This document shows, in pieces, positions 4,115-23,221 of a DNA stretch of 43,759 nucleotides (the stretch's first letter is position 1; each line of letters begins with the position of its first letter). The translations under genes were made by a program, and so were the position numbers. Source of the DNA: Verrucomicrobiota bacterium (GTDB lineage Bacteria > Verrucomicrobiota > Verrucomicrobiia > Opitutales > Opitutaceae). The notes beneath the pieces are model-generated. The model was not told where the DNA came from and did not search any database. It saw nothing but the letters and a program-made list of their open reading frames with translations. The DNA lies in the NCBI GenBank assembly GCA_026398135.1, contig JAPLTN010000048.1:1-43759 (forward strand). The letters are read 5' to 3'.

Positions 4115-4135
4115 AAGTAACCTATTAGGTTACTT
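4115..4135. repeat. palindromic intergenic repeat (empty IS110 target)
   Basis: Arms AAGTAACC (4115-4122) and GGTTACTT (4128-4135) enclose TATTA. The left flank (CCCCCAGCATCAAGTAACC) nearly matches 19376-19395, and the right flank matches 21030-21042. It is therefore a second, uninterrupted copy of the site in which the IS110 element at 19.4-21.0 kb sits. Located in the 270-bp gap upstream of glyQS, which otherwise shows nothing recognisable. Confidence 0.75.
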
Positions 4136-19165: not shown

Positions 19166-19241
<76 letters not shown>

Positions 19242-19407
19242 ACTCGCGAAGCAAAGGCTAAATCCTTGTTATCTTGCTGCCGATGCATGCCGCCGCGCGA
19301 CCGCACCGTTTTACCTTAAGAGCGCACATCCCTCTCGTTCGCCCCCTCCCTCCACTCCTTCACTCCTTCTTACCGCCCCCCAGCATTAAGTAACCTCTCA
19401 AGAAACT

Positions 19408-20796
19408 TCACGCTTGGGCGGGCGTTGGGATGAGTTGGAAGCCGAGATCCTTGGCCTTGGCTTTGAGGCGGGCGAGGGTGCGGGAGCGGTGGAGCTCGCT
19501 GGCCCCATCGTGCAGGTCCGGACGGTAGGCTTGGCGGGTTTTGATCATCACATACAAAATACGTGCGAGCTTGTTGGCCACCGCCGTGATGGCGGCTGCT
19601 CCCCCGAGCTTGGCGCGCATGCGCCGATAGTGTTCGCCGAGTTCGTTCTTGGCATGGTGCAGGGCTTGCGCGGCCATGCGCAACGCCCGGGCCACCCGGT
19701 TGGTGCTCGGTCTGGTGCGTGCGCCGAGCACTTTGCCGCCGCTAATGCGGTTGTCGGGGCATACCCCCAGCCACGAGGCAAAATGCTTGGCGGTGGGGAA
19801 TGCCGAGAGGTCGCCGCCAAGTTCGCTCCAGAGGGTCTGGGCGGTGAGCACGTTGATGCCCGGCACCGCACACAAGTCCACTCCATGCAGTCGGGTAAGC
19901 AGCTCGTGCGCTGCGAAGCCCGGCGCAGCTTTGCCCGCCGACTTCGGTTTGCTCGCGGGCGCCGGGCTGGGCTCGGCTTGGGCAGGCGGCGCCAAGTCGT
20001 TGAGCCGACGACCCAGCTCGGCGTCGAGCCGGGCGATTTGATTTTGCAAAAACTGATAGCCCTCGAACGCCTGCTTCAGGCAGAAGAGGTGTTCGCTGCG
20101 GTAGTCGCCGCTCAGCAGGGTCGCTTCCGTGGCCTTGACGCGTTTGTCGCGGTGGCGGGCCAGCACGGCAGGATCGCGCTCACCTTGCAGGATGGCCTCG
20201 ACAATGGCCGTGCCGGTCTGGCCGGTAATGTCGGCAAGAACATGATGGATCTGGAGATTCATTTGATCGAACGCCTTGTGCATGTGCTGGATATGCCAGC
20301 TGGAATGGTGCACCAGCGCATCACGCTGACGCCAGAGCGCACGCACCCCGCGCACCTCGGCGGCGGGCCGGAAGGCTCCGCGCAACAGTCCGACGGAGTG
20401 CAGGTATTGCAGCCACTGGCAGTCCATCACGTCGGTCTTGCGGCCGGGCACATTCTTGACGTGGCGGGGATTGACCAGACAGACCTCGATCTTTGCCTCC
20501 TCCAACAGCTCGGCCAGGGGTATCCAATATACGCTGGTCGCTTCCATCGCCACGCTCTTGATCCCGAAGGACTGCAACCACGCGACCAGCGCTCGCAGGT
20601 CTTCGGTAAAGGTGGGAAAAGAGCGCACCGGCTCGCTCGTGAGCGCGCTGGGCAGCGCGACGTAAATCTCGCGGGCACCGATGTCGGCGCCGGCGGCATG
20701 GGGGTTGATAACAGGCTGGATGGTCTGGACTTTGGTCTTGCGAGCACGAGGCATGGCTTGGGTAGGGTTGGTGGCGTCGCCTCCAGGCGGCCCCAT
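19408..20796 (-). CDS. IS110-family DEDD recombinase/transposase
   Basis: A 462-residue transposase. The N-terminal RuvC-like DEDD domain has D38 (GADIG), E85 (VAMEATSVYW) and D122/D125 (GRKTDVMDCQWL). A helical linker follows. The C-terminal transposase_20 domain carries LLTRLHGVDLCAVPGI and the serine region RISGGKVLG, the likely nucleophile, before an ARALRMAAQAL helix. All expected residues are present, so the element is probably active. The ATG at 20796 gives a 14-residue leader; ATG 20754 (MPRARKTKV) is equally possible. The family recombines donor and target DNA guided by a bridge RNA encoded in the noncoding end. Confidence 0.93.
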   Translation of the reverse strand: MGPPGGDATNPTQAMPRARKTKVQTIQPVINPHAAGADIGAREIYVALPSALTSEPVRSFPTFTEDLRALVAWLQSFGIKSVAMEATSVYWIPLAELLEEAKIEVCLVNPRHVKNVPGRKTDVMDCQWLQYLHSVGLLRGAFRPAAEVRGVRALWRQRDALVHHSSWHIQHMHKAFDQMNLQIHHVLADITGQTGTAIVEAILQGERDPAVLARHRDKRVKATEATLLSGDYRSEHLFCLKQAFEGYQFLQNQIARLDAELGRRLNDLAPPAQAEPSPAPASKPKSAGKAAPGFAAHELLTRLHGVDLCAVPGINVLTAQTLWSELGGDLSAFPTAKHFASWLGVCPDNRISGGKVLGARTRPSTNRVARALRMAAQALHHAKNELGEHYRRMRAKLGGAAAITAVANKLARILYVMIKTRQAYRPDLHDGASELHRSRTLARLKAKAKDLGFQLIPTPAQA

Positions 20797-21027
20797 GCGC
20801 TCAAGCTAGAGTTGGCACTCTCTCAAACGGGATGCAGCCCTCGCGGGCCGCTCACCACTGACAGGCGCGAGCGCATGGGCACCACGCTATTAGCCGGGCT
20901 TGGAAAGAGCACCAGGGTCGAGACGGTTTGAGCTTGCCCCTGTCGGCGTCGCCACCGGCCAGCGTTACCAAAAACGCCCCTCCGCCAAGTTTCTTTCCTG
21001 AAAGGTCGCGCAACGCGCGGGTGTTCG
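20797..21027 (-). ncRNA. candidate IS110 bridge RNA (left-end noncoding region)
   Basis: The 231-nt noncoding end upstream of the recombinase is where IS621-type bridge RNAs are encoded. In transposase sense it folds readily: GCGTT-TTTGGT-AACGC near its start, then GGGGCA...TGCCC closing a loop of about 55 nt. That loop contains CTAATAG (20887-20893), identical to the target half-site ending in the AG core. Further 3', TTGAGAG (20820-20826) is identical to the element's other end including the core (19395-19401). This order, target-like guide then donor-like guide, fits a bridge RNA. The complementary right-hand guides were not convincingly found. Confidence 0.55.
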
Positions 21028-21133
21028 CTATTAGGTTACTTTGGCCGTAGGACCCGGCAGAGTAAGCCCCAGCTTGCTGCCCGCCGCCCCTGCGCGGTTT
21101 GACCACTCGCTGGCCCGACCTACCGTGCGCCCG

Positions 21134-23221
21134 ATGCTGCTACGCGACTTCGCAGGCCTGCAGACTCTCATGCTGCCCGACGCGTGGCAGCGAGACGCCG
21201 TGCATGCCCTCCAGGCGGGGCACGACGTCATCGTTGATGCCCCGACCGGAGCCGGCAAAACCCACGTTTTCGAGTGCTACGTGGAACAGGCCAGCTTCGC
21301 CCGCCGCGCCGTCTTCACCGTGCCCACCCGCGCCCTCGCCAACGACAAATACGCCGAATGGCTGGCCCGCGGCTGGCGCGTCGGCATCACCACCGGCGAC
21401 CTCTCCGTCTCTCCCCACGCCCCCGTCGTCGTCGCCACCCTCGAAGCCGCCCAAGGCGCCCTGCTGCGCGCGCAAACCGGACAAGACCCCACCACCACCG
21501 TCCGCCTGCCCGACCTGCTCGTCATCGACGAATACCAGTGGCTCTCCGACCCCGCGCGCGGCAACCACTACGAAGGCGTGCTCGCCACCCTGCCCGCCCA
21601 CGTCCAGCTCCTGCTGCTCTCCGGATCCGTGGCCAACCCCGGGGACGTCGCCTCCTGGCTCACCCGCCTGGGCCGGCAAGTCCGCATCGTGCGCACCGCC
21701 GTCCGACCCGTGCCGCTCGAGGAAGTCGAAATCGACGATCTCGTGCACGGCCTGCCTTCCGAGATCGGCAGTTTCTGGACGCGCCGTGTGGCCGGGGCCC
21801 TGCGCGAAAACCTGGCCCCGGTGCTCATCTTCGCCCCCCACCGCGCCGACGCCGAGCGGCTGGCCCGCCAGCTCGCCCGCGAACTCCCGCTCGCCGACCC
21901 GCTGCCGCTCACCCCGGAACAACAATCGCTGGCCGGACCCGTCCTCGCCAAACTGCTCGCCCGCCGCGTCGCCCACCACCACAGCGGCCTTTCCTACGCC
22001 CAGCGCGCCGGCCTGATCGAACCCCTGGCCAAAGCCGGTCAACTGCGCGCCGTCGTCGCCACCCTCGGCCTCGCCGCCGGCATCAATTTTTCCCTTCGCT
22101 CCGTCATGCTCACCGCCGCGAGCTACCGCGCCGGCGCGCTCGAACGCGACATCGCCCCCCACGAATTGCTCCAGATGATCGGCCGCGCCGGCCGCCGGGG
22201 CATGGACGACACCGGCTACATGCTGGTCTCGGGCCGCACTCCCCGCCTGCGCCGGGCCGCGCCGCTTCGCCTCAAACGCTCCGCTCCCCTGCCCTGGGCC
22301 ACGTTGCTCCGCCTGCTGACCCCCGGACGCTCCGCCCTCGAGCTGGCCCACGATATGGCGCACCGCTTCTTCACCGAAACACCGCTTCTTCTCGGGGCGG
22401 AAAAGACCTCCCGGCTGCCCGCCCCGCCGCCCTGTAACCAGCTTACCGATACCGGACGCGCCCGCCTGGTCCGCCGCCGCCGCGATCCGTTTCCCGGCTG
22501 CGCCGTCTGCGCGCTTCGCCCCGCCTGCCTGGCCCTGCCCCCCGAGCCCACTCTGCTCTGGGAATGGCAACGCGCGGGCCTGCTGGACAAACGCCTGCGC
22601 CTCACCGCCCGGGGCGCCATCGCCTCCGTCTTTCTCGGACCCGAAGGCCTCGCCCTCGCCGCCGGCCTGGAAGACCGCCGCTACCCGCTGGAACATCTGC
22701 TCTTCGATTGCGCCAACCTTTTCGCCGGCGACCGCTTCGCCGGCACCAACCCCCGCCGCCTCGGTCGCCTGGTCCAGGTCTGCGAAAAAACCTACCGCCG
22801 CGCCAGCGTGGATGGCTACCTGGACGAAGGCGTGCCGCCCGCCTACGGCCACGGCGCGAGCGAGATCGTGCAGGCCCTGGCCGAGCGCACCACCTCGCGC
22901 GGCGCGCTCGCCGGCTCGCTGGCCGACGATTTCGCCCACGCCGGGCGGGGCGACATCGACCGCCTGCTCACCGAATGGCGCAGTTTTTTGAAAAACCTCG
23001 CCGCCGCCGGCCCGCTGACTCCGGGCCTGACCTTTGCCACCGAGCCGCTCCGCGCCCGTTGGGATGAAGCGCGAACCCTCGCCGCCCGATTACTCGGCGA
23101 CGCCCGCGCGCACGCATTACCCGCGCTGCCCCCGCTCACGCCCGAACAAAAACGGGCCGTGCACCACCGGCTCTCCCGCGCCATCGCCCTTGATCGTACC
23201 ATCCCTGCTCACGCCCGCTGA
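21134..23221 (+). CDS. Ski2-like DEAD/DEAH-box helicase
   Basis: A 695-residue superfamily 2 helicase with a Ski2/Hel308-like layout. The Q-motif region is QRDAVHALQAGHDVI, Walker A is DAPTGAGKTHVF, motif Ib VVVATLEA, motif II DEYQW (DEYQ rather than DEAH), motif III LLLSGSVANP, motif IV APVLIFAPHRADAE, motif V GLAAGINF, motif VI MIGRAGRRG. The C-terminal half includes a Cys cluster (CAVCALRPAC) and a helical domain typical of the group. It acts on RNA or DNA; substrate unknown. The ATG at 21134 was chosen; the open frame reaches 21041, and GTG 21125 is possible. The IS110 element ends 105 bp upstream and may have displaced the native promoter. Confidence 0.87.
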   Translation: MLLRDFAGLQTLMLPDAWQRDAVHALQAGHDVIVDAPTGAGKTHVFECYVEQASFARRAVFTVPTRALANDKYAEWLARGWRVGITTGDLSVSPHAPVVVATLEAAQGALLRAQTGQDPTTTVRLPDLLVIDEYQWLSDPARGNHYEGVLATLPAHVQLLLLSGSVANPGDVASWLTRLGRQVRIVRTAVRPVPLEEVEIDDLVHGLPSEIGSFWTRRVAGALRENLAPVLIFAPHRADAERLARQLARELPLADPLPLTPEQQSLAGPVLAKLLARRVAHHHSGLSYAQRAGLIEPLAKAGQLRAVVATLGLAAGINFSLRSVMLTAASYRAGALERDIAPHELLQMIGRAGRRGMDDTGYMLVSGRTPRLRRAAPLRLKRSAPLPWATLLRLLTPGRSALELAHDMAHRFFTETPLLLGAEKTSRLPAPPPCNQLTDTGRARLVRRRRDPFPGCAVCALRPACLALPPEPTLLWEWQRAGLLDKRLRLTARGAIASVFLGPEGLALAAGLEDRRYPLEHLLFDCANLFAGDRFAGTNPRRLGRLVQVCEKTYRRASVDGYLDEGVPPAYGHGASEIVQALAERTTSRGALAGSLADDFAHAGRGDIDRLLTEWRSFLKNLAAAGPLTPGLTFATEPLRARWDEARTLAARLLGDARAHALPALPPLTPEQKRAVHHRLSRAIALDRTIPAHAR

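Follow-up and report, generated by a model that had tools for sequence, protein, structure and literature searches.

A probable bridge RNA in the left end of a Verrucomicrobiota IS110-family element, with guides matching a repeated palindrome and the element's own right end

The 231-nt end upstream of the transposase of an IS110-family element very probably encodes a bridge RNA (we put the probability at roughly 0.93), with CTAATAG as left target guide and TTGAGAG as left donor guide. The element is the only one of its family in the 43,759-nt stretch of Verrucomicrobiota DNA analysed here (the window), where it lies on the minus strand and measures 1,633 bp counting one core. In the mechanism proposed, CTAATAG would let the target module read the left half of a repeated 21-bp palindrome, TTGAGAG would let the donor module read the right end of the element itself, and the shared AG core in which the two guides end would serve as the strand-exchange point. 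The two nucleotides after the target guide would correspond to those of the incoming left end, probably aiding strand exchange, and a right target guide located 5' in the target loop would be used in the clade while remaining unmatched at this insertion. The RNA would be expressed and bound by the transposase, which would catalyse insertion by way of a circular intermediate, and 131-bp relatives of the element may be moved in trans.

The element and its insertion point

A Pfam search found both IS110 domains in the transposase, the DEDD RuvC-like domain and Transposase_20 (PF01548 and PF02371), and the protein also matched NF033542, the NCBI model for IS110 RNA-guided transposases in NCBIfam. 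In the PDB two sequences were matched, the IS621 and ISCro4 transposases. Residues D38, E85, D122, D125 and S352 were placed by motif, and published descriptions were followed in assigning them to the DEDD and SG motifs. The full element is present as a single copy in the genome. A scan of IMG/VR with the transposase protein as single query gave no relative, and Rfam at gathering scores gave nothing but a tRNA in the window. The element is flanked by a tRNA gene (19166-19238) and a DEAD-box helicase ORF (21041-23218), from whose first possible start it is separated by about 12 bp.

The insertion splits the palindrome AAGTAACCTAATAGGTTACTT, and the junctions, read in transposase sense, are AAGTAACCTAAT-AG/CGAACACC...CTTGAG-AG/GTTACTT. 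The genome's 23 intact copies of the 21-mer fix the point of insertion as well as the shared AG core, and comparison with them revealed the IS110-family trait of insertion without target duplication, one AG being common to flank and end. The two ends of the element also carry an exactly matching 9-bp subterminal inverted repeat (Table 1). Across 46 elements, the longest repeat between the ends averaged 7.7 bp compared to 6.0 bp for swapped ends (0/5000 permutations).

Table 1. Positions of the element, its predicted RNA and its target in the window, with the basis of each assignment
Feature	Position	Strand	Basis
IS110-family element with AG core at both ends	19395..21029	-	boundaries from 23 intact target palindromes and script
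Transposase, 462 aa	19408..20796	-	PF01548, PF02371, NF033542, PDB matches to IS621 and ISCro4 transposases
Left subterminal inverted repeat AAGAAACTT, 32 nt from left end	20987..20995	-	sequence comparison of ends
Right subterminal inverted repeat AAGTTTCTT, 5 nt from right end	19400..19408	-	sequence comparison of ends
Bridge RNA, part matched by covariance model R1	20814..20939	-	88.2 bits; window is one of 15 model sequences
Target loop 5' side; right target guide by covariation in relatives	20915..20923	-	scan, permutations
Target-module hairpin TGGTGC...GCCCG	20895..20914	-	homologue alignment, fold
Left target guide CTAATAG, core AG at 3' end	20887..20893	-	covariation with flanks
CG, identical to the dinucleotide that begins the element's left end; handshake-like	20885..20886	-	z 5.8, 31 distinct elements
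Donor-module hairpin TGGTGA...ATCCCG	20828..20857	-	homologue alignment, fold
Left donor guide TTGAGAG	20820..20826	-	covariation with right ends
Possible donor-loop closing stem, 5' arm	20869..20880	-	window sequence and its fold only; outside covariance model
Possible donor-loop closing stem, 3' arm, overlapping transposase start codon	20792..20802	-	window sequence and fold only
Interrupted palindrome, left part AAGTAACCTAATAG	21028..21041	-	compared with intact copies
Interrupted palindrome, right part GTTACTT	19388..19394	-	compared with intact copies
Intact 21-bp palindrome elsewhere in window	4115..4135	.	exact 21-mer search

A conserved two-module RNA with covarying guides

CTAATAG and TTGAGAG each occur once on the minus strand of the 231-nt end (20797-21027), at 20893-20887 and 20826-20820, respectively. 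The initial annotation had read them as the target half-site and the element's other end, each joined to the AG core, and both readings are exact: the first is identical to the left flank plus AG (21034-21028) and the second to 19401-19395. The first match was also said to run on across the insertion junction, as it does, reading CTAATAGCG. When the 231 nt were shuffled 20,000 times with dinucleotides preserved, CTAATAG arose in 0.09% of the shuffles, TTGAGAG in 2.3% and both together in none.

Folding the window sequence alone gave nothing beyond shuffles (z -0.08; z -0.91), so a comparison of homologues was needed. The sources of homologues were 372 genomes of the order (seven matching at E 1e-40, own genome included), genome contigs, which gave 49 loci, and plasmids, of which 199 records matched and 30 were fetched. 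The consensus of 15 homologous left ends consists of two similar modules. In the target module, the hairpin TGGTGC..GCCCG is directly followed by the target guide and an ACCG/TGGT stem closes the structure; in the donor module, the donor guide directly follows the hairpin TGGTGA..ATCCCG. A covariance model, R1, built from these 15 left ends with the window included, produced 62 hits at E 1 or below, spread over 59 of the 68 loci. Of 22 plasmid homologues that had played no part in building it, 21 were found to contain the RNA, with E values of about 1e-13 to 1e-22 (the miss was L111). The nine loci without a hit at E<=1 (L024, L026, L035, L039, L040, L042, L044, L057 and L111) include some that are truncated. 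The only hit in the own genome was the RNA of the window, at 20814-20939, upstream of the transposase start at 20796. Among 54 distinct sequences, standard pairs filled 96.5% of the pair cells compared to 32-48% in slid-partner controls, and two-sided changes were found in 9 of 18 base pairs, counts that lean towards the model because the covariance alignment was fitted to it.

The guides change with the landing sites of the relatives, as RNA-guided insertion requires. Counting from the core, 21 of 24 distinct target guides shared at least 6 nt with the upstream flank of their own element (9% with the flanks of other elements) and 18 of 24 at least 7 nt (3% with other flanks), and the mean match was reached by 0/2000 permutations. 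Similarly, nine of ten distinct donor guides matched the element's right end over 7 nt, compared to 3% with other elements (0/2000 permutations). Examples of guide and target are GCAATTAG at GCAATTAG, CGGGTTAG at GGGTTAG, TTCAGTAG at TTCAGTAG and ATGGCGAA at TGGCGAA. The core varies together in target and donor guides, being AG, AA or AT by clade. The target match was missing in L023, L028 and L025 among the 24 distinct guides, and also in L106, L149 and L155, elements tested later or sharing a guide; the donor match was missing in L033 among the ten. The test used one element per distinct guide and kept 42 of the 62 model hits of the first alignment, leaving out five poorly aligned rows (from L041, L043, L045 and L066) and 15 Bacteroidetes rows, whose target runs measured 3 to 8 and whose donor matches in several cases fell within the gene; the target part was further restricted to elements with at least 150 nt upstream. 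An unbiased column scan of 51 elements peaked at the guide columns, with z 15.1 for the target guide and 10.7 for the donor guide, where 95% of the permuted maxima were 3.8 and 4.0, respectively. This larger scan dropped 11 of 62 rows for want of a boundary (four with a target run below 5 and eight with a donor run below 6, one of them both). The initial annotation would have given way had there been no conserved two-loop fold, or had homologues at different targets kept the same CTAATAG; the two-module fold is conserved, and homologues elsewhere carry guides matching their own targets. Tandem arrays are formed where related elements (L152, L099, L158 and L059) sit at the right end of a further IS belonging to their own family; the target guides of these elements equal a donor end.

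Right-hand guides had been sought in the initial annotation without convincing result, and for the target side a statistical signal was now obtained. When every well-filled RNA column was scanned against the right flank in 51 elements, the sole signal among the rows listed came from the columns corresponding to 20915-20923, on the loop's 5' side in the target module (z 6.4 compared to 3.9 for 95% of the permuted maxima). With the core left out and one element per distinct guide, 2.17 of 5 positions paired compared to 1.33 (0/20,000 permutations); the signal was retained in AG-core elements alone (31/20,000) and weak in AA-core elements alone (896/20,000). With the core included, at least four of six positions paired in 20 of 51 elements, compared to 10% of mismatched pairs. 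The right target guide thus appears to lie 5' of the left one in the target loop, and this signal of moderate strength suggests that it is used in the clade while being unmatched at this insertion. In the window copy, two of six positions paired, core included, the mean of mismatched elements being 1.75. This copy thus does no better than they do, and at its site the RNA would read the left half of the palindrome only. The earlier proposal of a system programmed for the palindromic repeat therefore stands for the left half, matched by CTAATAG, but not for the right half, which 20915-20923 does not match. Its IS621-type order likewise stands as far as a target module followed by a donor module, but not for the layout of the target loop, and the partial GGTAAC it mentioned is present in the left end but outside the modelled RNA.

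In 18 of 31 distinct elements, both nucleotides that follow the left target guide agreed with the dinucleotide that begins the element's left end (z 5.8, 0/20,000), with a control against the target's right flank giving z 1.2. A corresponding handshake in the donor loop was significant with the core included, and was dropped because without the core it was not (z 1.7, 1397/20,000 permutations). Scans of the RNA columns gave no clear signal for a right donor guide, and the variable stretch before the donor hairpin (20858-20868), considered for this role, displayed no clear complementarity. The site predicted from both window guides, CTAATAGTCGAGA, had no genome sites with zero or one mismatch; with two mismatches it had 12, compared to 46 for a reversed control pattern.

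The target palindrome and short relatives of the element

CTAATAG has 69 sites in the genome, comprising 26 palindromes (23 intact and three interrupted), the guide itself and others, and with so few sites, 26 of them in palindromes, reading of the left half can still account for the target. The exact 21-mer was found in 19 of 252 genomes of the family, with a patchy distribution that includes its absence from several genomes of the same genus. One genome (G456) holds 36 copies, and another (G475) has six palindrome copies within about 1.8 kb, partly through tandem duplication. The arms vary and yet are complementary in many copies. No R1 hit was found in five palindrome-bearing genomes (G456, G164, G488, G537 and G475), and the repeat therefore exists independently of the IS. 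Opitutus terrae is described in one paper as rich in GTAG-type repeats.

Perfect palindromes, mostly of the form GTAACC...GGTTAC, flank genes for small HTH-like proteins of about 125 aa at 21 of 26 loci (L175-L200). These loci comprised the six best matches and 20 picked further down the list, of which 15 were palindrome-flanked. The proteins have weak Pfam matches to YdaS and HTH_3, below curated cut-offs, and the own genome has one such locus (G000:C19:497-835). Next to HTH-like genes, 43 palindromes were counted in 10.4 kb, compared to 5 in 27.8 kb elsewhere, and the palindrome is alike on both sides of one gene and different between loci. The pairing recalls, by analogy, that of REP sequences and RAYT proteins. 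No description of such a palindrome/HTH-like gene system was found in the literature searched.

Two 131-bp elements in the same genome (G000:C28, L002, and G000:C59, L003) sit in the same palindrome, and have in common with the IS 40 bp of its left end and the right end TTGAGAG. Left end and flank together match the IS over 59 bp at 100% identity in the C28 copy (40 bp of end and 19 bp of flank) and over 57 bp at 96% in the C59 copy, which carries a subterminal repeat, AAGTAACT/AGTTACTT, resembling the arms of the target palindrome. Neither has a transposase or an R1 hit at E<=1. Related fragments were found in two of the other 251 genomes of the family (G451, L171, and G412, L172); the one in G412 is a similar short element with IS-like ends and without transposase or bridge RNA, which ends in TTACTTGAGAG and lies at another target. 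The 131-bp elements resemble MITEs, and might be served in trans by the RNA and transposase of the IS. Among the first 15 of 74 titles listed from the open-licence literature, no report of non-autonomous IS110 elements or MITEs with bridge RNA was found, and the word MITE does not occur in the text of the two 2024 papers checked.

Alternative readings and relation to known IS110-family systems

The resemblance between the palindrome arms (AAGTAAC...GTTACTT) and the subterminal repeats of the short elements, together with the lack of an RNA match to the right half, is what might be expected if the palindrome were recognised as DNA by the transposase itself, the leader's 7-nt matches being chance or relics of an earlier insertion. 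This is highly improbable, since the targets of related transposases differ widely and each agrees with the guide in the leader of the element inserted there, and since shuffling never produced the two matches together. A less remote, though still unlikely, course of events is that the RNA is real and this copy reached the palindrome by homologous recombination with a resident 131-bp element, in which case the site would not be direct evidence of its own guide's choice. The left junction held in common with the C28 and C59 copies and the right guide without a match at the site fit such an arrival, but the left and donor guides match over 7 nt each, as they do in relatives with no short elements in view.

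The layout of the target loop is a matter on which somewhat more doubt is warranted. The right target guide might not lie on the 5' side at all, with the signal stemming from relatives that share right flanks and the layout being IS621-like; the modest size of the effect and its weakness among AA-core elements speak for this. On the other hand, the permutation result held with one element per distinct guide and among AG-core elements alone, and no other column, among the rows listed, rose above the permuted maxima, which leaves an IS621-like layout a minority possibility. A bridge RNA encoded in the 231-nt end remains the preferred reading. A broader and tentative proposal, which we hold at rather less than even odds, is that this IS110 clade combines a left-end bridge RNA, IS1111 guide order, long subterminal repeats and a left-guide handshake, that the member described here parasitises an undescribed HTH-linked repeat, and that its RNA moves the 131-bp elements in trans.

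Like IS621 (PMC11208160, PMC11208158), the element has its RNA on the upstream side of the transposase, with the target module preceding the donor module; its guides end in a dinucleotide core common to both, its pairing includes a handshake-like part, and it inserts into repeated palindromes, as IS621 does into REP (PMC1525189). It differs in its core, AG instead of CT (PMC11208160), in the position of the right target guide, which in IS621 is at the 3' side of the loop with the left at the 5' side (PMC11208160) while the signal here is 5', and in the handshake-like nucleotides, which here stand beside the left guide (PMC11208158, PMC11208160). Moreover, the inverted repeats of IS621 are 2-3 bp (PMC11208160), compared to the 9-bp subterminal ones here, and the IS621 transposase chain has 328 aa compared to 462 aa.

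With the IS1111 group, for which seekRNA has been described (ISEc11, ISPa11 and ISKpn4; PMC11187229), the element has in common subterminal inverted repeats, what appears to be a top-strand complement preceding the bottom-strand complement and, for ISPa11, a palindromic target (REP). In that group, however, the RNA lies downstream of the transposase, the repeats are 7 and 3 nt from the ends (32 and 5 here) and the transposase has 330-350 aa (PMC11187229). The IS110 subgroup with transposases of 395-455 aa, together with ISEc21, resembles it in the upstream noncoding region and long transposase, but ISEc21 has the reverse guide order, with the top-strand complement second, and the passages concerned describe no sTIR for the IS110 type (PMC11187229). 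Among the traits said to separate the two groups, the upstream RNA is thus that of IS110 and not the downstream RNA of IS1111, while neither the absent or very short subterminal repeats nor the guide order of the IS110 group (bottom-strand 5' of top-strand) was found, the latter judged by a right-guide signal of moderate strength. Exceptions to the split are mentioned in PMC11187229, so a mixed layout is not unheard of. The guide order of ISPpu10, ISAar29 and ISHne5 is not given in the text passages of PMC11208160.

Insertion of IS110-family elements into REP palindromes was described by 2006 (PMC1525189), and the target class is therefore not new. As in ISPpu9, ISPpu10, ISRm19 and ISPa11 (PMC1525189), the insertion splits a repeated extragenic palindrome; unlike their REP, this palindrome is of GTAACC type and, at the loci examined, flanks HTH-like genes. 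Bridge and seek RNAs were described in 2024 (PMC11208160, PMC11187229); new are this element, its RNA and the clade's mix of IS110 and IS1111 features. That mix joins features published as separating the two groups and bears on the move of the RNA between element ends. The insertion also illustrates how a left guide of 7 nt can direct an element towards a rare repeat: palindrome copies make up 26 of the genome's 68 non-guide CTAATAG sites. The 131-bp elements, if moved in trans, would be natural minimal donors, and the naturally varied bridge RNAs of the clade, with AG, AA or AT cores and matched targets, are useful for learning what is reprogrammable.
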